From Alphaproteobacteria bacterium (GTDB taxonomy: Bacteria > Pseudomonadota > Alphaproteobacteria > Micavibrionales > Micavibrionaceae): a DNA stretch of 64,000 nt. Shown here piece after piece: positions 38,600 through 49,897 of this stretch (its first letter is position 1; each line of letters starts with the position of its first letter). The position numbers were made by a program, and so were the translations under genes. The notes under the pieces are model-generated. The model worked only from the letters and a program-made list of their open reading frames with translations, was not told the DNA's origin and ran no database searches. The DNA lies in contig NVTV01000002.1 in the NCBI GenBank assembly GCA_002401695.1, forward strand, positions 248,001 through 312,000, written 5' to 3'.

Positions 38600-38655
38600 T
38601 GGTGCCCCCAGCCGGACTTGAACCGGCACTCCCGAAGGAACCGGATTTTGAATCC
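38600..38655 (-). pseudogene. 3' half of a split tRNA-Leu(CAA) gene (attL)
   Basis: Reading the minus strand, this holds the anticodon loop TTCAAAA, the 3' anticodon strand, the long variable arm, the T arm (GCCGG with CCGGC), the 3' acceptor strand TGGGGGC, discriminator A and CCA. Similarity to tRNA stops at 38655, where the 5' anticodon strand should continue. No D arm or 5' acceptor strand lies beyond. The missing half is at 49859-49897. Confidence 0.92.
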
Positions 38656-38896
38656 TTTTTGTATACCTGTAAATACTTGATAAATAATAACTAATTCGTA
38701 TTTATTATGTGTATGTGTAACATAATGTGTAAGTATTTAAAAGGCTTTGTTCATAAATAAGCGAACGCCATAGCGTTACGACATATCGCTTAAACAGCTA
38801 ATTTAAGGCTAATTTATGGTTAGATGGTTTATTCAGGTATTTTGAGCATCCGATTTAAGACTTGCTAATCGGCCAATTTACGGATAATTTAAGGCT
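38656..38896. promoter_or_regulatory. Left-end region of the element: repeats before fic
   Basis: Holds two TGTGTAA repeats (38714 and 38726) and a nested hairpin: TAAGCGA (38758-38764) pairs with TCGCTTA (38786-38792), with AACGC/GCGTT inside. A 13-bp direct repeat TAATTTAAGGCTA occurs at 38799-38811 and 38885-38897. The second copy runs into the fic start codon, so it may be an autoregulatory site. Confidence 0.45.
38714..38733. repeat. Candidate integrase arm-type sites, left
   Basis: TGTGTAAC at 38714 and TGTGTAAG at 38726, 12 bp apart. The same octamer occurs twice near the right end. Matching pairs at both ends of the element suggest arm-binding sites for the integrase. Confidence 0.4.
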
Positions 38897-39943
38897 ATGA
38901 CATGGAAACCAAAATATACCATCACGGATAGGCTGCTCTCTACTATGCGTGAGATCGGTGAAGCCATTGGTGAGCTTAAGAGCTTTAACCTAAACCAGAA
39001 AGAACTGGCGAAGCTTGAGGTGAGCGCTAGAGAACTCTCAAGCTATGCTTCTACCAGCATTGAGGGAAACCCACTCCCGCTTACAGATGTAAAACAGCTG
39101 CTTAAAAGCAGTAAAGTACATATACGGGATACTGAGCGCGAAGTGCTGAATTACAATAAAGCACTTGAAGCGCTTTATGCCGCCGTCCATTCAGAAAAAT
39201 TTGATCTAAATATTGGTACATTGGAACAGGTGCAAAAACAGGTTGTTGATGGCTTGATGGATAATCCTGTCGATTGTGGTCGCTTGCGCACAAGAGCTGT
39301 TGTTATCCGCAACCCTCGCAAGGTGGATGAAATTGTGTTTATTCCGCCAGACGTTAAAGATGTTGAAAAACTCATGACAAACCTTCTGGCATTTATAAAT
39401 GAGCATATCGGAAAAATAGACCCGATCATTTTGGCGGGATTATTTCATCGCCAGTGCGTTATTATTCACCCGTTTATGGATGGGAACGGTCGCACAACCC
39501 GTCTGATTACAACGGCTATTTTAGGAAGGGCTGGGCTTGATCTCTTTGAAATTTTCAGTTTCGAAAATTACTATAATCAGAGTATCACCCGATACTTCAA
39601 AGCCGTCGGACTTGAAGGTGACTATTACGATTTAGAAGGTATGGTTGATTTCACTACATGGCTGGAATATTTCGCAGAAGGTATTCTTGATGAACTTGGG
39701 CGCGTACGCAAAGCGATGTCTGATACAATAGAGCCTGCACCACGTTTAGAGCCTCATCACAGAAATATTTTGGAATACCTCGGCGAACATGGCAGCATTA
39801 CGCAGCGCGAATATGCTAACATCTCCTCTCGTAGCCTTGCCTCCAGAAAACTGGATTTTGAGAAACTGCTAAGCCTAGAGCTTATTGAAGTTAAAGGCAC
39901 AGGTCGCGGAACGTATTATGTGAGGAAGGCAAATTCTGCGTAA
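38897..39943 (+). CDS. Fic family protein (probable AMP transferase)
   Basis: A 348-residue Fic protein. The catalytic motif is HPFMDGNGRTTR near residues 192-203. The N-terminal inhibitory helix motif SxxxEG is seen in STSIEGNPLP near residue 54, so this is a class II Fic whose own helix blocks the ATP site. The C-terminal 70 residues form a winged-helix domain (EHGSITQREYANIS, then KLLSLELIEVKGTG), as in many Fic proteins thought to bind DNA. The target is unknown. It is convergent with, and 5 bp from, the DGQHR gene. A short AAGG lies very close to the ATG. Confidence 0.93.
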   Translation: MTWKPKYTITDRLLSTMREIGEAIGELKSFNLNQKELAKLEVSARELSSYASTSIEGNPLPLTDVKQLLKSSKVHIRDTEREVLNYNKALEALYAAVHSEKFDLNIGTLEQVQKQVVDGLMDNPVDCGRLRTRAVVIRNPRKVDEIVFIPPDVKDVEKLMTNLLAFINEHIGKIDPIILAGLFHRQCVIIHPFMDGNGRTTRLITTAILGRAGLDLFEIFSFENYYNQSITRYFKAVGLEGDYYDLEGMVDFTTWLEYFAEGILDELGRVRKAMSDTIEPAPRLEPHHRNILEYLGEHGSITQREYANISSRSLASRKLDFEKLLSLELIEVKGTGRGTYYVRKANSA

Positions 39944-39948
39944 AAAAT

Positions 39949-42303
39949 TTACGAAAAAGAGCCATGTAAATTTTCATGCAGTTTCTTTAAAAATTCAACT
40001 TCATTCTTATTAAGCCCTTTTTCTTTAGTGCCCTCATGAGCCCAATTGTTTCTGTGAGAATTGAAAACTGATAACCATTTTAGCTTTTCTGATTTGCTAT
40101 TAAAGCTATACCCCATATCTAGGGCAAAAATATTCTCAAAGGTTTTGAAATCATCATCGAGTGTTTTAGGTCTTTTGTTCCAGTGCTTTTCAATTATGGT
40201 TTTGTAATCTTTTATAAAGAACTGCTCTCTCCAATCTATAGCTTCTCGCCCTAGCCCTTCTTTATATCTTCGTTCTTCTTCCTCGCTAGCTCTCTTTTCA
40301 CATTCCCTTTTGATAGAAGCAATTTCTAAATCCCAATTCTCACCGTATAAACTTTTTAAATTAGATAAAATTGTGGTTTTTATAAATCGCTCAATATCTA
40401 TTCCTACACCTCTCCCTTCACTCTGCAACGCTTCATCTTGACGTTCCTTCCAGTCGACTAAATCGCTAGGCTCATAATCTGAATATCTCTCATTTACTAA
40501 AAGTTGGAAACGTCTAAACCACTTAATATCAGCACCTGATCCGAGTTTTCCTTTGAGCTCTTCCACTTCATCCTCTGGAAGTTTTTGGATGCCCTCTAAG
40601 AATACTTGCAGATATTTTTCTATCGCATTAAATCTATCCTCAGGTTTAGTTTTTGAAGAGATTTCTTTACTATCGGTTTCGAATTCATTCAAACTTCCTA
40701 TTAGACTGATAAAAGCAAACGTGCCCCGATTTGATAGTATAAAACCTTGCTCCTGTTCAAAAACGTCAGAGAAATTAGTTTCTACGTATTCATAACAGAA
40801 CTTTAGAAACTCAACCAATCTACCACGCGCTTTAAGCATCTCTGATGCATGATCTTGATTGTGTATGTTGTAAAGAGAATATTTGGATAGCTCCTCATCG
40901 TATTGATTGCCTTTTACTTTAGGCAGTAATGTTGCCTTGGTTAAGGCATTATAAAAGGGATTGGCAGAAAGAAGAGCCTTATCTTCACCAATTGATATTT
41001 TATTAAAAAGGGGCCCTTGGTCACCAGCTAGCCTTTGTATGATAGAGGATCTTAACGCTTTAATTCTTGAGGCGGCCAAATCAGAGCCCCAATAAAGATC
41101 TTCTTCAAGGGTTATCCTTAAAGTGGCACTAACGGCTTTCTGATTTTGGTTAATGCTCATGAACATTTCCAATTGCTCTATAGATTCCAACCCCTCAAAA
41201 GCCACGACAGGTATTGTATTAGAGTTTTTATATTCTGTGCCAGCATACCCATAAATACGATGCTGCCCATCAATGATATATGCAATGGCATAAGCATTAG
41301 GGATCTTAAGGGTGCCATATTGCGATATGCTATCCTCTTCACGACCAGATGCTTCAAACTGTAGCCTATTTTTCTTTTTACCAAAATTTAGGATAACGGA
41401 ATTAGGAAAGGAGCCCCCATCATTAATAAATTTTCTAATGCCATTAAGGCGGCTGGGAACAAGAAGCCTTTGATATGTAGGCATTTCACTTTCGTTGGCG
41501 CTTGTGCGGTGCAGTATAAATCCTAGTCTCAGAAGAGTGTGAGGTTCAATTGAGAACATATAGTATTTTTTTCCACCCATTGTACCCTGTATAGCAGGAA
41601 CCTCTATTTTGTTTTTACTGATAGATTGTCCTTTAAACAACAGGGCTGAAAATTGATAATGAGCAGAATCCTTATAAGATTTGATCAGGCTGTTAATATA
41701 CTCATAAGTATTATCATTATAGAAATATGATTTTGTATTTAAAAGCCTTTCTACGTCAGCACTTGTACTACTTAACCTTATATTTCTGCTGGCAAAAATG
41801 TACTTTATTTTTCTGCTTTTACCAAACATCTGTTCTAAAGTTTTAGAAAATCCGGCCAACCTTTTTTGTAATCCTTCAAACTCAGTTTTGTAAGAAGGAG
41901 CTTTTGATGATTTTTTTGCTGACTTGCACTCAATTAAAAGAATGCTTTCATCGTTTATTGCGATGATATCTATTTGTTTTTTTTCGTTTTGGCCTTTGCC
42001 ATATGGCAATCTAAAATCATTGCTAACATTAAAGTGTCTAAAACCTAACTCATAAAGTTGGCACCATACATCATCTTCAAATTTAATACTGTGCTCTTTT
42101 AATTTCCTTAGCTTAGTTTTGGTTTTTAGAGGAGCCGCGTACTCTTCCCAGCCATCCTCAAGCATTTCTTCAACTAAGCTATGGTCAACATTTTTTAAAT
42201 AATAAGGACTACGTTTTGCTTTATGCAGCTTTCCAAGTTGTGACTTGTCTGACGTTAATTTATTTTGTAATTTTTCAATTTCTGCAGGGTCGATGAAAGC
42301 CAT
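39949..42303 (-). CDS. PD-(D/E)XK nuclease-like + DGQHR + HEPN-like multidomain protein
   Basis: A 784-residue protein in three parts. Residues about 70-190: a restriction-endonuclease-like core with E76, D112 and E125-x-K127 (QIDIIAINDESILLIECKSA). Residues about 230-560: a DGQHR domain, with DGQHR at 345-349 and FMSINQNQKAVSATL at 381-395, as in DndB and related phosphorothioation-linked proteins. The last about 90 residues end with SHRNNWAHEG, an R-x4-H motif (R751, H756) as in HEPN RNases and the Swt1-type C-terminal domain. Gene order and a 29-bp gap tie it to the dam gene. The combined architecture is one I do not recognise from described systems. Confidence 0.82.
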   Translation of the reverse strand: MAFIDPAEIEKLQNKLTSDKSQLGKLHKAKRSPYYLKNVDHSLVEEMLEDGWEEYAAPLKTKTKLRKLKEHSIKFEDDVWCQLYELGFRHFNVSNDFRLPYGKGQNEKKQIDIIAINDESILLIECKSAKKSSKAPSYKTEFEGLQKRLAGFSKTLEQMFGKSRKIKYIFASRNIRLSSTSADVERLLNTKSYFYNDNTYEYINSLIKSYKDSAHYQFSALLFKGQSISKNKIEVPAIQGTMGGKKYYMFSIEPHTLLRLGFILHRTSANESEMPTYQRLLVPSRLNGIRKFINDGGSFPNSVILNFGKKKNRLQFEASGREEDSISQYGTLKIPNAYAIAYIIDGQHRIYGYAGTEYKNSNTIPVVAFEGLESIEQLEMFMSINQNQKAVSATLRITLEEDLYWGSDLAASRIKALRSSIIQRLAGDQGPLFNKISIGEDKALLSANPFYNALTKATLLPKVKGNQYDEELSKYSLYNIHNQDHASEMLKARGRLVEFLKFCYEYVETNFSDVFEQEQGFILSNRGTFAFISLIGSLNEFETDSKEISSKTKPEDRFNAIEKYLQVFLEGIQKLPEDEVEELKGKLGSGADIKWFRRFQLLVNERYSDYEPSDLVDWKERQDEALQSEGRGVGIDIERFIKTTILSNLKSLYGENWDLEIASIKRECEKRASEEEERRYKEGLGREAIDWREQFFIKDYKTIIEKHWNKRPKTLDDDFKTFENIFALDMGYSFNSKSEKLKWLSVFNSHRNNWAHEGTKEKGLNKNEVEFLKKLHENLHGSFS

Positions 42304-42332
42304 ATAATATTCCCATTCACTATTTATATATT

Positions 42333-43172
42333 CTACGTTTTATAACACTTGATGATTAATTCTGAATATTTTCCACGCGCACTTGCCTTGCCTGAAATAA
42401 CGCTGGATCTATTTAAACTCATTTTTTCACCTATGTTTTGGTAAAGATCGTGAATAGATTCATGATCAGCATTGGTGAGTAGAACCTTGACTCCCCTAGA
42501 AACAGCATTGTCGATAGCATCTCTTAAGCGAATTTGGTCGTCCCAGCTAAAGAGTTTATTGTTGTATTTTACAAATCCGTTTAAATTATGTTTAACCGTG
42601 TAAGGTGGATCTACAAATAAGAAATCATTTTTTTGCGCATTTTCTATTATGGTTTGAAAATCAGTTGCGTGTAATTCAGTATTATTGAGTTGTTTAGAAA
42701 CAGATTTAAAATCATCTGTGCTAAGTAAAACGTGTTTCTTAGTGCCGATAGGTACGTTAAAATTCCCAGATAAGTTGACTCTATAGAGGCCGTTCCAACA
42801 AGTACGGTTAAGGTATATAAACTTAGCAGCTCTCTCTACAGCTGTATCAAAAACTGAAGTTCTTATCTCATAATAAAAATCTTTAGTATGTTGTTGATGG
42901 TAAGAATTCAGGATTTCTTCTACAGACGACCAATTGTTCTTTATTTGTTGATAGGTTTCAATCAATTCCGCATTGGCATCTCCGAGGATAGCGACTTTAG
43001 GACGCATATGAAAATATACAGCTCCACTGCCTAAAAACGGCTCTAAATAGTTTTTATAGCTACTGGGAAGCAACTCAGGGTGAGCAGATACCAACCAACG
43101 CTTACCACCTGCCCATTTTAGAAATGGTACAATAATAGGGTTTTTATTGAATTTACGATCTATCCCCAACAC
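42333..43172 (-). CDS. dam: Dam-family DNA adenine methyltransferase
   Basis: A 279-residue N6-adenine methyltransferase of the D12/Dam class. It has the opening FLKWAGGKRWL (17-27), motif I EPFLGSGAVYFHM (44-56), LNRTCWNGLYRVN, and motif IV DPPY (188-191). The target may be GATC, but that needs proof. The start is a GTG with AAAAGG 5 nt upstream. It is the first gene of a pair with the nuclease-DGQHR-HEPN gene 29 bp downstream. Together they look like a modification plus effector module. Confidence 0.93.
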   Translation of the reverse strand: MLGIDRKFNKNPIIVPFLKWAGGKRWLVSAHPELLPSSYKNYLEPFLGSGAVYFHMRPKVAILGDANAELIETYQQIKNNWSSVEEILNSYHQQHTKDFYYEIRTSVFDTAVERAAKFIYLNRTCWNGLYRVNLSGNFNVPIGTKKHVLLSTDDFKSVSKQLNNTELHATDFQTIIENAQKNDFLFVDPPYTVKHNLNGFVKYNNKLFSWDDQIRLRDAIDNAVSRGVKVLLTNADHESIHDLYQNIGEKMSLNRSSVISGKASARGKYSELIIKCYKT

Positions 43173-43370
43173 ATATGCCTTTTAATAATTCGTCTATTAT
43201 TTATTGTGTAGTTAAACTACCTTAACTTACAGAAAAAGTGTAGATATAAATAATATGGATTACTCGTAACTTTGCTGGTCGGCGAGAGAATAAACCACCC
43301 TTAGCACATATACATTAACTTGCGATTTATCCTGTAAATCACGCCCATATTTTAAAACCATGACCGTTTT
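43173..43370 (-). promoter_or_regulatory. Presumed promoter region of the dam operon with a palindrome
   Basis: AT-rich 200-bp gap upstream of dam. It contains GTAGTT-A-AACTAC (43208-43220), a perfect 6-bp inverted repeat with one central base, about 36 bp upstream of the dam start. Placement fits an operator over the promoter. Confidence 0.35.
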
Positions 43371-43505
43371 CTAAAACAGAAAAGCATCAATTACGATGCC
43401 AATACCGCCATATAGAATGGACATAAACACATGATAAAAGATCATTGGAGATCGGTTCTCATCCATGGGGTTGGGAAATTCATTTTGGTTTTGTTCGTCA
43501 GACAT
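43371..43505 (-). CDS. Small single-span membrane protein, 44 residues
   Basis: The ORF starts MSDEQNQNEFPNPMDENRSP and ends in a hydrophobic helix (MIFYHVFMSILYGGIGIVIDAFLF, residues 21-44). AAGGGA precedes the ATG by about 7 nt. The acidic head and single membrane span look designed rather than random. I do not recognise it. It lies upstream of dam on the same strand, about 200 bp away. It is antisense to a longer ORF that I reject. Confidence 0.5.
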   Translation of the reverse strand: MSDEQNQNEFPNPMDENRSPMIFYHVFMSILYGGIGIVIDAFLF

Positions 43506-43598
43506 AGCTATCCCTTCTTAAAAAGTTCAGATTTCAAGACAGGGATAGTTCCTCATGGTATTGAGAGGTTTGTAACATCAGAAAACCGATGCGCGGCG

Positions 43599-43665
43599 TA
43601 TTCACGGCAAGCCGCTCTTATATTCCGCCGCCCTCTCAATATAAGAGAGGGCTTTTGCGTGAATA
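43599..43665 (+). terminator. Nested hairpin with an inner Rho-independent terminator
   Basis: The inner stem CCCTCTC/GAGAGGG (43631-43637 with 43645-43651) is followed by CTTTT, like a terminator. An outer 8-bp stem TATTCACG (43599-43606) with CGTGAATA (43658-43665) encloses it. The outer pairing is perfect and could compete with or frame the inner stem. There is no clear gene just upstream on the plus strand. Confidence 0.5.
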
Positions 43666-43788
43666 TCAGCCAATATATGTTTTCTAGGGTTACAACGCCC
43701 TGTCACTAACGACAACTTAGAGATTTTTAACGGAAATGTAAACAAGGAAGAGAATAAGTAGAGTCATGTTATAGTGGCATAGTATTTT

Positions 43789-43820
43789 ATCCGTGAGGCA
43801 GATAAAACTGCCTCACGGAT
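43789..43820. other. Perfect 13-bp hairpin
   Basis: ATCCGTGAGGCAG and CTGCCTCACGGAT pair without mismatch around a 6-nt A-rich loop. No T run follows on either strand. It sits 24 bp beyond the end of a decayed minus-strand ORF, so it may be its terminator remnant or a protein-binding site. Confidence 0.5.
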
Positions 43821-43843
43821 ATGCCCATAATAGGGAGGGAGTA

Positions 43844-43965
43844 TCATATGAACACGTGATCACCTTGTTCTTCTATGTGAATAACACCCGTATTGCCCTG
43901 ATATAAAACAACAATTGATCACACTCAATGTAATGCAATCGTTTGACACCATAAGCATTTAGATG
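43844..43965 (-). pseudogene. Possible gene remnant with a frameshift
   Basis: On the minus strand one frame reads HLNAYGVKRLHYIECDQ and the next frame continues IVVLYQGNTGVIHIEEQGDH to a TGA at 43844. Both stretches look protein-like and they join with a one-base slip. Neither has a normal start codon. It is probably the remains of a small gene. Function unknown. Confidence 0.3.
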
Positions 43966-44037
43966 CTAATCTTAAAGAAGGATATATATATGGCATGGTG
44001 AATTTTACTATGTGGTAAACTTAAGAAAGGAACAAAA

Positions 44038-44076
44038 ATGCGTATTTATCAAGAAGGTGAAGGAGGCGGAGCCTAG
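44038..44076 (+). CDS. 12-codon ORF with strong ribosome site
   Basis: Encodes MRIYQEGEGGGA. AAAGGAA lies 5 nt before the ATG. A strong terminator starts 25 bp after the stop, before the next gene. This could be a leader peptide of an attenuator, a tiny functional peptide, or chance. The Gly/Glu-rich end is unusual. Confidence 0.4.
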   Translation: MRIYQEGEGGGA

Positions 44077-44101
44077 CTCTAGCTAACTTTCAGTTTAAAC
44101 A

Positions 44102-44134
44102 AAAACAGCATATGCATCATATGCTGTTTTTTTT
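44102..44134 (+). terminator. Strong Rho-independent terminator or attenuator
   Basis: AACAGCATATG pairs with CATATGCTGTT around a CAT loop, extended by flanking A and T and followed by a T run. It lies between the 12-codon ORF and the start of the membrane protein gene at 44148, whose leader it would interrupt. Confidence 0.85.
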
Positions 44135-44147
44135 GAGGATTTTATTA

Positions 44148-44970
44148 ATGACAACATCTATACCTGAGATTCCCCCCAGCACTAATGCTCTTTTGTTAAG
44201 CACGGATGTTCTTTTTTTTGTTGGGATATTGGGAGGGTGGAGCGTTTACACAATATTTTACCTGTACCGTAAAAGAAAAAAAGTTGCTTGGAAGAAACAT
44301 AGAGAATTTAATAAAAATTATTTTAGTTTTTTCAAAAACCCACTGAGCTCTGGTTTGGGTATATTAACCTTCTTCCTAATAATCGCATTAGGATTAACCT
44401 ATCAATCAAATCCTGAAAATAAAAATGTTTATGCCATTATTATTTCTGCGGCACTTGCCGCTATGGGATGGATTATACATGTAAAGCACAATACGATTTT
44501 ACAAAGAAGAAGGCAAATTTTTGACCTATTAAAAGATCTGAAAATTAAACACCACGTAGACTTTATGATCATAAATAAATATAAAGCTCCCCATGAAAGA
44601 TTTGCAGACGAAGACATGGACAAACTTTTGACTGGATATAAATGTAAGAATAACTATGAAGATGTAAATTCATATCCCCCACTTTGGGCAATTATAAGAG
44701 TTGCTAACTCATACGAACGCACGCTTAAAAGAAATAGATAAGGTATTTTCAGACCAGTATATAGCAGGATCTCTTGTCTTTTTTTATGTTAGATGTTTGC
44801 CTGTAATTAAGCATTACAATAATAAAAATGAAAAAGTATATCAGGATTTAGTTTGGTTAGTAGAAACAGAATGGAACGATCGTTTCCAAAAAGTTCTTTT
44901 AGGGTTTTTGAATCAAGATAAATATCAATGCGGCTGTAAAAAGTGCAAAGAAGATATTAATATTTCCTAA
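44148..44970 (+). pseudogene. Frameshifted membrane protein gene (DUF4760-like)
   Basis: Frame 1 (44148-44741) has two membrane helices (STDVLFFVGILGGWSVYTIF and a second at about 70-115) and a cytoplasmic part that ends ANSYERTLKRNR. Frame 2 (to 44970) continues RLKEIDKVFSDQYIAGSLVFFYVR. Removing one A from the AAAA run near 44731 joins them as ...SYERTLKEIDKVF. The joined protein, about 273 residues, resembles DUF4760 membrane proteins, by my reading. It may be a true mutation, a phase-variable tract or a sequencing error. GAGGA lies before the ATG at 44148. Confidence 0.65.
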
Positions 44971-44993
44971 ATGATCGCTATGGCTATTTATAA

Positions 44994-45911
44994 TCACATT
45001 TTTTTGACGGTAAGTCCCCGCTCCAGCCGATCAATCCTTAAAGCCGTCGGCGGATGCGTATACATATACTTCTTCAAAAAGCCTGTTGCGCCGCGTACGT
45101 CTTCATCTTCGATGCGTTCGAGTAATTCAATAAGCGCAGGGGCATACCCCAGATCAGCGGCGAACTTGTCAGCGCGATATTCAATTGGCCATGCCGTTGC
45201 AAAATCAACGGAACGCATACCCCAAAGCGCGGCAATACACGGCCATAAAAATACCGCACAAAACGCCATTGATAAGCCATATGCGACCATGATGAGGGTA
45301 TCTGTTAAATCGTCATCTTTGCCGCCACCAATCTTCATATTTGGCTTGGGGCATGCTTCCACAACGCCGCTTAATACGTGATGCACCAAAATAACAGGAC
45401 TGCTCGCGGCAAATAACGTCATGTTCAATACACCATCACGGTTATGCAGGTGTCCAATTTCATGAGAAATTACCGCCGCCAGTTCTTCATCCGTGGCAAC
45501 AGATAACAACCCCTTCGATACCGCAATTGTTTTGCGACCAAGCGCAATACCGTTAATGTTTGGCATATCCATCACCAATAACTTAACGACAATGTCCTCA
45601 CCATGCTTTTCCCGATAGAGCTTTAAGACCTCATCCAACACGGGCTTAATCTGCTCTTCCTCGCGTAAACTTTGCTTGCGAATGGGAAAAAATAACGACG
45701 CAATCCCGTCACTCATCGGAGAGGCGGCAAGCACCACCAGCGGAATGACCACAATAAATCCCATGGAAGCACAGGCCGTAAACAACGCTGGATTCCAAAA
45801 AGTATCCGCCACTGTCATGAAAATAATCGGGAGATACACTAAAAAACCGATCAATAGACAAGAAAAAATCGCCATGGCGATCAGTGCAATAAAACGCGTA
45901 TGAGTAATCAT
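44994..45911 (-). CDS. M48 family membrane metallopeptidase
   Basis: A 305-residue HtpX/Ste24-like zinc protease. Two N-terminal membrane helices, the site ISHEIGHLHNRDG, a further membrane pair, and the third zinc ligand in EYRADKFAADLG. HtpX degrades membrane proteins, but the role on this element is unknown. It overlaps the coupling ATPase gene by 4 bp, so it belongs to the transfer operon. It may process or clear membrane proteins during transfer. Confidence 0.9.
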   Translation of the reverse strand: MITHTRFIALIAMAIFSCLLIGFLVYLPIIFMTVADTFWNPALFTACASMGFIVVIPLVVLAASPMSDGIASLFFPIRKQSLREEEQIKPVLDEVLKLYREKHGEDIVVKLLVMDMPNINGIALGRKTIAVSKGLLSVATDEELAAVISHEIGHLHNRDGVLNMTLFAASSPVILVHHVLSGVVEACPKPNMKIGGGKDDDLTDTLIMVAYGLSMAFCAVFLWPCIAALWGMRSVDFATAWPIEYRADKFAADLGYAPALIELLERIEDEDVRGATGFLKKYMYTHPPTALRIDRLERGLTVKKM

Positions 45912-47290
45912 ATTTTACTTCTCCTTACATTAATTTTTCGAACCTTGTTGTCTTCTTTATAATAGAAAAACGCTTCACCCGTTTTCAGGGCTTTGATGTC
46001 ATCGGGATGAGCAATAAAACCGCGTGATCGGCGAACTGTCCCCATTTGCGTGGGGCCGGCTTCGCTGACTTGCGCGGTGTATTCCAAAGTGTTTCGTGTG
46101 CCCATTAACTCCGCCAGCTTTGCTGCGTCTTCGGGGCTATTCTGCCGATGTAAAATGAAGGTGTTACACGAACCCACCACCTGATTGACGAAGTGATCGG
46201 CATTTTTGCTCCTGCCAACGGCTAAATCAGACAGGCTTTGCGTCGATAGCACTGCATGAACGCCCGCGCTGCGCCCCATATTGATGACATTCAATACCTG
46301 CTGTCCTGCAAACACAGAAAACTCGTCAAACACCACATAGAGCTTTTTCTTTTCACCATGACTAAGCTGCTGCGCCATAGTTGCCTTCAAGTCATTGATA
46401 ATCAAACGCCCAAGCGTTTGCGCCATAGATGAAAATTCCAGCGCAGGCAAACAAAAGTACGCAATGCCGTTTTGTGCCACAACATCCGGCAGCGTTAAAA
46501 CAGGCTTTCCACTATCGACATTGAACAGGTGCCCAATTTCAGAAGCCGTAAAGTTACGAATTTCAGCAACCAAACTCTCGATACTTTTTGCGGCGTGATC
46601 TTGATGGTTCAATTCATCCATCAACCGCTGCGCGTCGGGAAGCTCCGCCTCATGCGTTCGCACCAATGCTTTCAGCCGTTTCAAATCCAAGTGATCGGTT
46701 AAACTGATCATATTGCACGGCACATTGCAGGCTTCCATCACCTTAAACACGCTTTGCAAATAGCCTTCGGCGAGCTTTTTGTAATGCTCTTCTGACCATT
46801 CGCGAAGCTCAATAATCCGATCCTTCTTGGATGTAAATCCGCCAGAGGCAAGGGGGTTGTAAACAACACTTTCGCCATTCATGGCAAATACGGAAACAAG
46901 TCTGCCATGCTTTTCACCGTACTCGGCAACACGCCGCGCTAAGTCATAATCACCTTTGCCATCAATATAAATGAGGGGGAGATCGCGATGAATCGCGCTT
47001 TCAACAATATTGCAAACCGTCACAGTTTTCCCTGATCCTGTTGTCCCCAGCACCAGCGTATGCTGGTTTGCGGCCTTGTCACTAAGTTCGATTTTACGTC
47101 CGTATCGATCCGTTCCAATCAATGAACTCGCCGACTTCTCGTCGTTTTCTTGATGACTATGGATAGGAAGGGCAGCTGCCTTCCTAAGATTTTGATCCCG
47201 CTTCGCTCGTTTAAGAACAAGAAAAGTTACGAAACACGAGACACAATAGACCCCGAACAAAATGACGGCTTGTGTCATATCTATGTCCAT
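45908..47290 (-). CDS. VirD4/TraD-like type IV coupling ATPase
   Basis: A 460-residue ATPase with one N-terminal membrane helix (about 6-26), Walker A GTTGSGKT (82-89), a substrate-loop segment IYIDGKGDYDLARRV, Walker B in YVVFDEFSVF, and LSTQSLSDLA (the TQ motif of TraD/VirD4 and HerA-type ATPases). It would deliver DNA to a type IV secretion channel encoded elsewhere. The ATG at 47290 has AAGGA 10 nt upstream and overlaps the upstream stop as TAATG. Second gene of the transfer operon. Confidence 0.88.
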   Translation of the reverse strand: MDIDMTQAVILFGVYCVSCFVTFLVLKRAKRDQNLRKAAALPIHSHQENDEKSASSLIGTDRYGRKIELSDKAANQHTLVLGTTGSGKTVTVCNIVESAIHRDLPLIYIDGKGDYDLARRVAEYGEKHGRLVSVFAMNGESVVYNPLASGGFTSKKDRIIELREWSEEHYKKLAEGYLQSVFKVMEACNVPCNMISLTDHLDLKRLKALVRTHEAELPDAQRLMDELNHQDHAAKSIESLVAEIRNFTASEIGHLFNVDSGKPVLTLPDVVAQNGIAYFCLPALEFSSMAQTLGRLIINDLKATMAQQLSHGEKKKLYVVFDEFSVFAGQQVLNVINMGRSAGVHAVLSTQSLSDLAVGRSKNADHFVNQVVGSCNTFILHRQNSPEDAAKLAELMGTRNTLEYTAQVSEAGPTQMGTVRRSRGFIAHPDDIKALKTGEAFFYYKEDNKVRKINVRRSKI

Positions 47291-47874
47291 TATTCTGTTT
47301 TCCTTATACTTGAAATCATTTTGATTTTGATAAACGGATAATCCTTCGCAGCTTTGTAAATTGCAGTTGCGACCGTTTGTTGATCCGTGAAATACCAAAC
47401 TTCTTTAACGCTTAAATCACCGCCATATCCATTAATGATGCTGCGTATTCGCGCCCGCGATTTGATTGAAAGCTCCAACTCAATCGCAATCGGCTTATCA
47501 TCGCCAATATATAAATATCCATCTGCGATATGCCCAAGCTGTCCCACGCCACTTAAACCTTCATCATGGCGTATGCGTCGATCTGGATGAAAACGCCCGC
47601 CCGTTTCTGCTTCTAACATCAGCGCAAGATCCACCAATTTAAGATCATGCTTAAACGTTCCCAAATGAATATCTCGCAAGGGGAGGAGCGCATCACCGCT
47701 GGCAATCGTACCCACTTTACTCACTTTATGAATGCGGGCTTGCCCGTGTAAAATACGATCCCGCACGATATATCCCGCATCTACTAATTTCCGTATCCGC
47801 ACATATGCCGCCGTTTGCCCCACCTGCATAAACTGCCGAATCTGCTCCGCCGTTGCACAGCCAAACCCATTCAC
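47290..47874 (-). CDS. Replication-relaxation/MobC-type protein with winged helix and nuclease-like fold
   Basis: A 194-residue protein from the GTG at 47874. The N-terminus is a winged helix (CATAEQIRQFMQVGQTAAYVRIRKLVDAGYIVRDR across residues 6-40). The C-terminal part has an ADGYLYIGD-IAIELELSIKSRARI pattern like the PD-(D/E)XK-type core of the Replic_Relax family. The same frame stays open upstream to 47925 and reads ERDGEILRWVNGFG, which fits a winged-helix start better, but has no ATG, GTG or TTG. An ATT at 47886 may initiate. First gene of the operon with the coupling ATPase and M48 gene. Confidence 0.72.
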   Translation of the reverse strand: MNGFGCATAEQIRQFMQVGQTAAYVRIRKLVDAGYIVRDRILHGQARIHKVSKVGTIASGDALLPLRDIHLGTFKHDLKLVDLALMLEAETGGRFHPDRRIRHDEGLSGVGQLGHIADGYLYIGDDKPIAIELELSIKSRARIRSIINGYGGDLSVKEVWYFTDQQTVATAIYKAAKDYPFIKIKMISSIRKTE

Positions 47875-47925
47875 CCAACGTAAAATCTCTCCATCTCTCT
47901 CTCCTGAAACTCCATCCTTTCCCCC

Positions 47926-48002
47926 TTACTACTAACTTACTACTAACTTACTACTAACTTACTACTAACTTACTACTAACTTACTACTAACTTACCTCTA
48001 CC
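47926..48002. repeat. Six 11-bp tandem repeats (iteron-like) plus one degenerate copy
   Basis: TTACTACTAAC occurs six times without change from 47926 to 47991, followed by a degenerate seventh copy. It lies just upstream of the relaxation-type gene. The 11-bp period matches one DNA helical turn, so a protein could bind the same face each time. Confidence 0.9.
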
Positions 48003-48078
48003 TAACCCAACCAACACACCACCACCCACTAACCAAACACACACACTACCAACTCCCCACACCCAACCGCCACCACTA
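48003..48078. other. Strand-asymmetric C/A-rich tract
   Basis: About 75 bp of nearly only C and A on the plus strand (few T and hardly any G) between the iterons and the large inverted repeat. Such skew is common near nick sites and origins. No ORF is convincing here. Confidence 0.6.
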
Positions 48079-48137
48079 CCACCACACTCCTGACCTCAAT
48101 TGAACATCTTGTTTGGTTGAGGTCAGGAGTGTGGTGG
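48079..48137. repeat. Perfect 21-bp inverted repeat
   Basis: The arms 48079-48099 and 48117-48137 pair without mismatch around a 17-nt loop. With the adjacent iterons and the C/A tract it forms a candidate oriT or replication origin. No T run follows it on either strand, so it is not a simple terminator. Confidence 0.9.
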
Positions 48138-48178
48138 GGGCTTAAACATAAGAATACGCGGGCGCAATCGTCCCTAAA

Positions 48179-48203
48179 GGTATGAAAAACTGTTTTTCAT
48201 ACC
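48179..48203. promoter_or_regulatory. Perfect 12-bp palindrome
   Basis: GGTATGAAAAAC-T-GTTTTTCATACC. Two 12-nt arms with a single central base. It lies between the origin-like region and the tRNA-Leu gene, and could be an operator or part of oriT. Confidence 0.5.
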
Positions 48204-48344
48204 CTGTTTCATAATGGCTTTCTGAAAGTTGGGGATATACTTACATAATTTTAGGCATAAAAAAATCCCTCACACGGCTGTATGAAGGCTTTCTTATTAT
48301 GAAAATAATATACCACAGAGTGCGGAGCAATTTCAATAAAAATA

Positions 48345-48429
48345 TGGTGCGGGCGGTCGGACTTGAACCGACACTCCCTAAGGAACAGCATTTTGAGTGC
48401 TGCGCGTCTACCAATTCCACCACGCCCGC
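48345..48429 (-). tRNA. tRNA-Leu (CAA), element-borne copy
   Basis: An intact 85-nt gene with encoded CCA. Acceptor GCGGGCG/CGCCCGC, the D-arm stretch TGGTGGAATTGGTAGACGCG, anticodon stem CAGCA/TGCTG with loop CTCAAAA (anticodon CAA), long variable arm, T stem GTCGG/CCGAC. It differs from the split chromosomal tRNA in the acceptor, anticodon stem and T stem, yet the D region is identical. In the core, TTTTGAG replaces TTTTGAA, so it no longer matches the attachment site. Strong promoter at 48442-48470. Confidence 0.96.
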
Positions 48430-48441
48430 GTACCGTCATAG

Positions 48442-48470
48442 TGTATAGCTATATATAGCCGTTATGCCAA
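48442..48470 (-). promoter_or_regulatory. Promoter of the element-borne tRNA-Leu
   Basis: On the minus strand TTGGCA, 17-nt spacer, TATACA. The tRNA 5' end is 12 nt after the -10. Good sigma-70 match. Confidence 0.7.
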
Positions 48471-48485
48471 GCAAATTATTTCATT

Positions 48486-49709
48486 TTAGGTGATTTTTTT
48501 ACGCCGTACCTTCTTCACATTGATTGCAGAGGCGTCCAAGTTTGTTCTGATATGAGAGGCATAGTATTTTTCAATCATCTCAACGCTTGTGCGGCAGTTT
48601 TTGGCAATCTGATAGATATCTGCGCCTTCCATTAAGTGAAAGCAAATATAAGTATGGCGTAAGCTATATGCCGTTCTGGTATTTCCATCACGATCCACCT
48701 TTAACTGCGTTTCATTCAGCACGGCATTTAACAATTCGCGCGGACTTGTCGGGAAAATTAAGTCGGTTGCTTCTGGCTTGCACATCTCCTTATGGTTACG
48801 TCCTGTCTGGCGATACCCATCAACGCCTTCTTCAACAACAGGTCTTAAACGTGCTGCTAATCGCTCAAAGGGACGAACTGCACCAGTGGTGCTTTTACAA
48901 TAGCCAATGCCTCGTTTACCGCGTACTTCAATTTCAAGGATTGTTTCTTCGCTATCGTAATCATCCACAACGGCAACATCGCGAAACTCAAGCCGCTTTA
49001 CCTCATCTGGGCGTAAACCTGTATTAGCCATGAACAATACATAGTCGTGTAGTTGCTCGCACGCCCATTTCCATCTCGGCTTAGGAGGTATTTGTGCGCG
49101 ACTGCGCGTTGCTTCATAGAGCTTTTTATATTCTTCGGGTGAAAACCACCCACGGTGCGAAATTTTGCCTGATGATTTGTACGGCGCAGAAAGATCGGGT
49201 ACGGCTTGTATCCAGCCATGCCGTGCGGCGGTTTTTAAAACCTGCCTTAAAGCGACAATTTCACTATGGAGGGTGCTGCGCGCAGGCGGCTTGCCTGTTT
49301 TTTCTGTATCCTGCATCCGCTTAATTCGATATTCATGCGCTAAGCCAGATGTAATATCGCTCAAATACTTATTACCAAAGAAGGGCAGTAGATATAGCCG
49401 TAGCTTCTGTTCCTTACTGGCAACGTACTCTTCATTACGTTCACCTGCTGTCATAACATGATATTCTTCAAGAAACTTCTTCGCAGCTTGTTTAAACGTC
49501 TTGCCTTGCTTTAATTCTCCAGAGCGAGCTTTGCCGCGTAATACAAGATACCAATCCTCGGCAATTTCCTTTGCGTGCGAAAGGCTGTCTTCCTTTGTAC
49601 TTGTTCTCCAGTTTCTGCCTGCAAAATACGCGGAACATTGCCAATATTGGCTATTATCACGTTTATATACGTGCAGCTTACCACCCATAAGAATGTGTTT
49701 TTCGGCCAT
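48486..49709 (-). CDS. int: Tyrosine recombinase / integrase
   Basis: A 407-residue site-specific recombinase. The arm-binding and SAM-like N-terminus is followed by a catalytic domain with Arg in NTGLRPDEVKR, the H/Y-x-x-R-H block as AYSLRHTYICF (the first His is Tyr), and the nucleophile in MIEKYYASHI. It lies 149 bp from the right attachment core and reads away from it. The upstream promoter of the split tRNA reads in the same direction. It would cut within the tRNA-Leu anticodon loop. Confidence 0.95.
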   Translation of the reverse strand: MAEKHILMGGKLHVYKRDNSQYWQCSAYFAGRNWRTSTKEDSLSHAKEIAEDWYLVLRGKARSGELKQGKTFKQAAKKFLEEYHVMTAGERNEEYVASKEQKLRLYLLPFFGNKYLSDITSGLAHEYRIKRMQDTEKTGKPPARSTLHSEIVALRQVLKTAARHGWIQAVPDLSAPYKSSGKISHRGWFSPEEYKKLYEATRSRAQIPPKPRWKWACEQLHDYVLFMANTGLRPDEVKRLEFRDVAVVDDYDSEETILEIEVRGKRGIGYCKSTTGAVRPFERLAARLRPVVEEGVDGYRQTGRNHKEMCKPEATDLIFPTSPRELLNAVLNETQLKVDRDGNTRTAYSLRHTYICFHLMEGADIYQIAKNCRTSVEMIEKYYASHIRTNLDASAINVKKVRRKKIT

Positions 49710-49748
49710 TTTACTTACCTCCCCACATGCGATTATAGCAAATAAAAC

Positions 49749-49767
49749 TGTGTAAGGGTTGTGTAAG
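49749..49767. repeat. Candidate integrase arm-type sites, right
   Basis: TGTGTAAG twice, at 49749 and 49760, 11 bp apart, between the integrase start and the right core. The same octamer pair occurs at the left end (38714-38733). Confidence 0.4.
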
Positions 49768-49858
49768 TGAAAATTTAGTCTGATTTTTAAAATATTTGAG
49801 AAATAATCTGTTATTTTTCAAATGGTTATGATTGTTTTTGTGGAACGCCATTGTGTGG

Positions 49859-49897
49859 TTTTGAATCCGGCGCGTCTACCAATTCCACCACAGGGGC
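49859..49897 (-). pseudogene. 5' half of the split tRNA-Leu(CAA) gene (attR)
   Basis: On the minus strand: acceptor strand GCCCCTG, D region TGGTGGAATTGGTAGACGCG, 5' anticodon strand CCGGA and loop TTCAAAA. The next bases do not pair with the stem. Joined to 38600-38645 it gives a tRNA with 5-bp anticodon stem CCGGA/TCCGG and a 7-pair acceptor (two G-U). The element therefore disrupts this gene. Confidence 0.93.

Follow-up and report, generated by a model that had tools for sequence, protein, structure and literature searches.

Few relaxase families are as poorly understood as MOBC, and to our knowledge no covalent relaxase-DNA pilot has been detected in any MOBC system. MOBC relaxases are placed among the PD-(D/E)XK enzymes in passages of two papers (PMC12857230, PMC9299015). 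For TraX of plasmid pAD1, the former describes in one such passage a winged helix that binds five direct repeats located about 70-120 bp from the nick (PMC12857230). According to a section of PMC5704250, a MobC relaxase is likewise encoded by the few mobilizable plasmids known to have a VirD4 protein of their own. Putative streptococcal integrative mobilizable elements (IMEs) that encode MobC together with their own VirD4 protein, two in number, are described there and in part of PMC5357655. Here we analyzed a 64,000-nucleotide stretch of an alphaproteobacterial (Micavibrionaceae) contig, termed the window, to which all positions refer unless a locus is named. The non-coding region at 47907-48203, between a mobC-like gene and a carried tRNA-Leu(CAA) gene, very probably serves as origin of transfer (oriT) for an integrative mobilizable element. 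This element has its own genes for a MOBC relaxase and a coupling protein, and we found no mating pore in it.

The region carries several features of unusual regularity. An array of 6.5 copies of an 11-bp unit (TTAGTAGTAAG on the sense strand) extends over 47925..47995 on the minus strand, with six identical units at 47926-47991 (Tandem Repeats Finder, 100% matches); these are candidate relaxase-binding repeats. The array begins about 88 nt past a hairpin, spanning 88-153 nt from it. This hairpin (48079..48137, minus strand), which we presume to direct the nick, has arms at 48079-48099 and 48117-48137 that pair perfectly over 21 bp around a 17-nt loop starting with CCAAACAAGATG, and it contains the core TCCTGACC/GGTCAGGA; inward extension yields 28-nt arms (89%). 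Further out, a palindrome, GGTATGAAAAAC-n-GTTTTTCATACC, at 48179..48203 (minus strand) is probably a protein site. Its arms, 48179-48190 and 48192-48203, are perfect and separated by a 1-nt spacer, and nothing was found that ties it to nicking. On the mobC-sense strand, 47907..48068 (minus strand) is free of C, that is, 162 nt without G on the plus strand, the next-longest C-free or G-free run of the 64-kb window being 40 nt. Additionally, TGTTTGGTT at 48031..48039 (minus strand) is an inverted copy of part of the left arm and loop of the hairpin. Inverted repeats in the 1,100 nt that precede the relaxase gene scored 21 at best, against a maximum of 11 in 100 dinucleotide shuffles, a control that bears on the inverted repeat. 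These shuffles and the run-length comparison in the window ruled out chance as the origin of the repeats. BLAST matched the region once in the 3.06-Mb assembly, two extra matches being self-matches of the hairpin and of the palindrome on the other strand, and in an Rfam scan only the tRNA was matched, with no family for the hairpin region. An earlier sequence-only reading had picked out the six 11-bp repeats, a strand-skewed C/A tract, the 21-bp perfect inverted repeat and the 12-bp palindrome, and all of them stand up to these measurements.

The gene that follows, at 47290..47874 (minus strand), encodes 194 aa from a GTG and is, by profile comparison and conserved residues, a homologue of the MOBC/PD-(D/E)XK relaxases, so that its previous description as "relaxation-type" proved apt. 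The window protein matches the NCBIfam model NF041423 (MobC family replication-relaxation protein) with an E-value of 3.5e-7, and its relatives in loci L009 and L011 reach 2.5e-11 and 1.8e-10, all three under the curated cut-off. Pfam gave no match at 0.001 for the window protein, and the relative in genome G134 matched Replic_Relax at E 2.6e-4, below the cut-off. By hhalign, an alignment of six members of the MobC family matched one of 13 plasmid homologues, six of them from plasmids typed MOBC by MOB-suite (pAM373 included), with a probability of 99.9 and an E-value of 6.8e-32 over 203 columns. Besides the start Met, six residues are invariant among the 13 plasmid proteins (H88, D129, E142, E144, K148 and R152), and the window protein keeps them all as H76, D118, E132, E134, K138 and R142. 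By motif, we take D118, E132, E134 and K138 to be the catalytic PD-(D/E)XK residues. Helix-turn-helix matches of the window protein are weak, and the window copy is without the first codons of its relatives in frame. The profile of the plasmid family matches MarR-type winged helices, and a low-confidence AlphaFold2 model of MobC (six sequences, pLDDT 48) has a topology in keeping with a winged helix plus a PD-(D/E)XK domain. In the relatives mobC starts about a dozen codons earlier, and the same stretch is out of frame in the window (by eye). Between 47860 and 47910, this frame shift at the mobC start looks by eye like either a slip in a GA-rich stretch or an assembly error. No MobC relative was confirmed in viral contigs by single-protein or alignment searches.

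The region had also been placed directly upstream of a mobility operon, and this location is confirmed by the gene order: mobC is followed by a VirD4/TraD-type coupling protein (ORF listed at 45908..47398, minus strand), whose likely ATG at 47290 overlaps the mobC stop (by eye), and then by a third operon gene encoding an M48 (HtpX-like) metallopeptidase (44994..45911, minus strand). An M48 gene is also present downstream in L009. The coupling protein matches TrwB_AAD_bind at 4e-14, above the Pfam cut-off, and SXT_TraD at 1.5e-36, below the cut-off of that model; its N terminus is shorter than in the 591-aa ORFs of L009, L011 and L012. Because both mobC and the coupling protein are N-terminally shorter than those of the relatives, the window copy of the element may be decayed.

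The element itself covers 11.2 kb (38646-49868) and has an integrase and attachment sites. Its tyrosine integrase gene lies at 48486..49709 (minus strand). The element is bordered by the two parts of a split host tRNA-Leu(CAA) gene, the 5' part at 49859..49897 and the 3' part at 38600..38655 (both minus strand), which share GGATTCAAAA of the anticodon stem-loop in a direct-repeat comparison and contain the 10-bp att core at 49859-49868 and 38646-38655, respectively. Joined across this core, the two halves are letter for letter the intact gene of the same-genus genome G075 (by eye). When the tRNA flanks were searched in 12 same-genus genomes, seven others matched, and ARAGORN detected an intact tRNA-Leu(CAA) in four of the five loci scanned (G072, G075, G077 and G079), the fifth, G078, having a broken copy. 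In G075 the uvrA side of tRNA-Leu(CAA) is inverted relative to the window (L074, 1062-3105). The element carries its own intact tRNA-Leu(CAA) at 48345..48429 (minus strand), presumably a substitute for the split host gene; no second intact copy was found in the assembly, which is 93.8% complete. The tRNA-Leu pattern matches in this assembly comprise GAG twice, TAG, CAA on the element, the broken CAA and two weak non-tRNA matches; given this completeness, and as neither UAA nor CAG is among them, further genes may have been missed. That the carried tRNA is an ordinary att reconstruction was ruled out, both host halves having been found. The element has split the host tRNA-Leu(CAA) and carries an intact gene of the same isotype, matching the arrangement of tRNA-dependent integration. 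At the right end, two TGTGTAAG sites 11 bp apart (49749..49767, plus strand) could be integrase arm sites, and a GTGTAAC/TGTGTAAG pair is found at the left end (38715-38733).

Pfam identified no mating-pore protein among seven element proteins (a set that leaves aside the ORFs at 43431-43709, 44112-44741 and 44701-44970), and a VirB4 model applied to the element matched the coupling-protein gene only, with no VirB4. The rest of the genome contains two VirB4-class genes whose scores, 506 and 491 bits, fall short of the 643 required by the family cut-off, in a search that also matches in 8 of 14 control genomes. TrbI is encoded near both of them, and homologues of CagX, TrbL and VirD4 near one. 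Two type IV secretion clusters are accordingly delimited in this genome at L072 5963-17623 and L073 8450-19342, one with a full VirD4-like gene, and such host clusters are possible candidate helpers. As for cargo, positions 39949-43172 (34-38% G+C) encode a DndB/DpdB-like protein with a NERD domain beside a Dam-type adenine methyltransferase, possibly a defence module. A Fic-domain gene is present in three elements (window 38897-39943, L011 5103-6146 and L012 3572-4621).

The MobC protein was detected in 6/142 genomes of the order and 5/104 of the family, own genome included, and the hairpin pattern in seven of the 142. A second hairpin pattern matched six contigs, all titled as alphaproteobacterial MAGs, in a collection of 84,980 species from which the genome of the window may have been excluded. 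Both mobC and the hairpin are intact in five genomes. The contig of G134 begins inside the hairpin, just before mobC, and that of G099, taken as L013 from identical position and letters, ends in it. G078, taken as L018, keeps the palindrome and the hairpin and is followed by a shortened abiE-like gene (by eye); mobC is missing there, probably through deletion. In all seven alphaproteobacterial loci holding both, the palindrome lies upstream of the hairpin core at a spacing of 72-74 bp, perfect in the window and G023 and imperfect in the other five. A TGTTTG(G/A)TT copy (TGTTTGATT in G134) is likewise found 60-73 nt past the start of the right arm in 7/7 loci containing the stretch. Downstream of mobC, L009 (9157-13178, genome G004) encodes AbiEi/AbiEii, an AbiJ-like Abi_C protein and an ArdA-like antirestriction protein, and in G134 (L019, 136-1975) mobC is followed by a gene for a 401-aa putative nucleotide-binding/TIR-like protein (by eye) and not by a coupling protein. 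In G023 (L006, 960-1200) the palindrome is beside an apparent guaA 3' end (..IEWE stop; by eye), and the guaA 3' end is a known island insertion site.

The hairpin core TCCTGACC/GGTCAGGA is identical in all 11 tabulated hairpins save for one C-A mismatch in L018. Beyond it, the six alphaproteobacterial rows show two or more Watson-Crick types at 8 of the 12 outer stem pairs, a number that rises to 11 of 12 once the Staphylococcus and pAM373 rows are added. The table leaves out G093, whose stem equals that of G094, and several plasmid hairpins (variants, pUA140, the Paenibacillus polymyxa locus L041 and others), and a MAFFT alignment that misplaced the outer stems was excluded from the counts. 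None of the 11 hairpins contains a G-T pair, and their absence from a stem that varies suggests selection on the structure as DNA. Relatives retain the C-free tract too, with 0-5% C in 160 nt at the five loci measured and, for G134, 5% over 152 nt. No relative shares the 11-bp array, which is specific to the window. A 12-bp array of different sequence exists in G093, AGTAAG being common to it and to the window repeats; by eye, direct repeats were not seen in G004, G023 and G134 and only loosely in G094. Retention of the region in related elements, a point raised by the sequence-only reading, therefore holds for the hairpin, the palindrome spacing and the C-free tract and fails for the 11-bp repeats, G093 having a different 12-bp array.

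We extended the comparison to 20 plasmid regions, 19 of them hand-chosen for taxon spread, not at random, from 22 + 823 matching records and the pAM373 region added by accession as the twentieth. Two pairs of rows are near-duplicates (L031/L041 from P. polymyxa and L032/L045 from Streptomyces), and for L033 and L027 the region was taken upstream of the coupling-protein gene because mobC comes second there. The core CTGACC..GGTCAG was found upstream of mobC in 6/20 regions, all from Bacillota: a Carboxydocella plasmid, two of P. polymyxa, one of P. xylanexedens, the Enterococcus plasmid pAM373 and a Staphylococcus plasmid. On these plasmids of another phylum it lies 211-768 nt from the start used, and the pAM373 stretch is presumably its experimentally mapped oriT. 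The exact core was not found in the other 14 regions, among them those of enterobacterial mobC plasmids, which have a different gene order; two of the 14 (Peribacillus and Pseudalkalibacillus) have the variant GAAGACCTC..GAGGTCTTC, and one is incomplete. In the Carboxydocella and two Paenibacillus rows the stem ends at the core with no outward extension, and several hairpin loops contain CAACGT or CAACAT. Upstream of 2501 in L035, a Sporomusa MobC plasmid has several successive similar hairpins, in which loops of the type TCTTTTATGGGGA take the place of the shared core.

The core was located throughout the window and the loci, 355.5 kb in total. Its 26 rows, a figure that includes overlapping loci, reduce to 13 distinct sites: 11 precede mobC, L013 has one where its contig ends, L018 has one although mobC is missing, and there are none elsewhere; as most loci were chosen for mobC or the hairpin, it is the absence of the core elsewhere that counts. 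A C-poor tract (≤11% C in 160 nt on the mobC-sense strand) follows the hairpin in all five alphaproteobacterial loci measured and the best inverted repeat in 10/19 plasmid regions, 19 being the number used since L040 begins at the record start and has no inverted repeat. The tract is absent from the other nine, including pAM373 (18% C) and Carboxydocella (29% C). A test of the 18-base core for generality, run on viral contigs, failed: the motif matched 32 loci against 14 for a scrambled core, and no MobC relative was present in the stretches examined for either, five positive controls (members of the MobC profile itself) being recovered in the same test. The core alone thus does not predict MobC in phage DNA. 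The hairpin pattern had no match in viral contigs.

Could the region instead act as RNA? A leader or attenuator of the mobC operon, whose transcript would fold the hairpin with the downstream loop copy as an alternative pairing, would fit the position of the region in front of this operon, the conserved TGTTTGGTT copy complementary to the left arm and loop, and the strong folding of the hairpin as RNA (-42.8 kcal/mol in the window). A small RNA of the IME SGI1 is moreover described in a passage of PMC9299015 as needed for transfer. Against this, the stem has no G-T pair even though most outer pairs vary, which is unusual for an RNA helix. Furthermore, no Rfam family matches, a scan showed no promoter-like site between the palindrome and the hairpin, and the Bacillota plasmids have this core at a distance of 211-768 nt from the start used. 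We consider this reading quite unlikely.

The sequence-only reading had left origin of transfer and origin of replication side by side. The first is best supported, by the MOBC homologue, the coupling protein and the kept hairpin. The second, in which iterons and hairpin would replicate the excised element, appears very unlikely to us: the iteron-like array and strand-skewed tract would suit it, MobC matches a replication initiation protein in PHROG, though very weakly (E 0.18), and relaxase nicking can also prime rolling-circle copying, but Pfam revealed no initiator among the seven element proteins, the iterons are private to the window, and some core-sharing plasmids have a separate replication or primase gene. 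That the palindrome and hairpin are integrase or excisionase sites of the attachment region is likewise very improbable, for although G093, G094, G099 and G078 have a tRNA-Leu fragment no more than a few hundred bases from both (3' parts beside the palindrome, by eye), separate GTGTAA-type pairs exist near the att cores at both ends, an integrase gene stands between the att end and the palindrome in the window and one also precedes the palindrome in G004, and the core is common to mobC plasmids.

Read as an oriT, the region suggests the following course of events, in which binding, the position and strand of the nick, transfer and the helper are those we infer from sequence. The integrase would cut the element out of the split tRNA-Leu. 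The MobC-like relaxase would then bind the tract between the hairpin and its gene, here through the AGTAAG-type repeats, by means of its N-terminal winged helix, and its PD-(D/E)XK domain would nick at or near the hairpin. Finally, the VirD4-like protein of the element would pass the single-stranded DNA on to the channel of a type IV secretion system provided by another element. A broader proposal, which we regard as doubtful, is that MOBC oriTs follow one design across phyla, a near-perfect hairpin whose core TCCTGACC/GGTCAGGA is fixed and, after it on the relaxase-sense strand, about 160 nt nearly free of C, the C-free tract being selected to remain unfolded and to be threaded bare. Such a strand entering the coupling protein would explain how MOBC transfer proceeds without a covalent pilot; the unstructured leader is deduced from base composition.

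It is to be noted that the shared core and the C-poor tract are not described in the MOBC relaxase and origin literature that was searched. They may be partly known, as the primary CloDF13, pAD1 and TraX papers of 2001, 2002 and 2013 were outside the scope of that search. The main text of the 2024 oriTDB paper has no occurrence of MOBC, and a literature search with the core letters gave no MOBC-origin paper by title among the matches listed. A core common to Bacillota plasmids and alphaproteobacterial islands designates a place to look for the nick and a lead for finding MOBC origins beside relaxase genes, and the C-free tract makes the unstructured leader a testable idea.

Among known systems, the MOBC plasmids pAD1, pAM373 and CloDF13 share with the window a relaxase homologue of the PD-(D/E)XK class, whereas here it belongs to an integrated element in Alphaproteobacteria. 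For CloDF13, the gene table of the record names no mobB or mobC. The TraX sites of pAD1 lie about 70-120 bp from the nick (PMC12857230), and the window repeats begin about 88 nt past the hairpin. A further likeness to pAM373 is that this plasmid has the hairpin core ahead of its own relaxase gene; its relaxase, however, has 261 aa, compared with 194-232 aa in the alphaproteobacterial elements, and the repeats found here are of another sequence. The streptococcal Class_IME_8 is similar as an IME with MobC and its own VirD4-type coupling protein, as parts of PMC5357655 and PMC5704250 describe it, and differs in that its members, two of 144 IMEs, use serine integrases, in contrast to the tyrosine integrase, tRNA-Leu target and alphaproteobacterial host found here. 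With regard to integration, ICEMh1-like elements of Pasteurellaceae also target the anticodon loop of a tRNA-Leu, that of UUG, with a repeat, GATTCAAAATC, close to the GGATTCAAAA of our element. In the account given in a portion of PMC6861422, one end mostly keeps a full tRNA, whereas our element has tRNA fragments at its two ends and brings a separate tRNA gene with it. A parallel in this respect is offered by phages with tRNA-dependent lysogeny such as Fionnbharth, which, as a section of PMC10865867 reports, have an att core of about 10 bp, do not rebuild the tRNA and carry one of the same isotype. By analogy, the tRNA of the element may be a needed substitute for the host gene, and the element suggests that islands of the conjugation type can render a host dependent, as some phages do, by breaking a tRNA gene and supplying its replacement; the difference is that here the carrier is an element of conjugation type.
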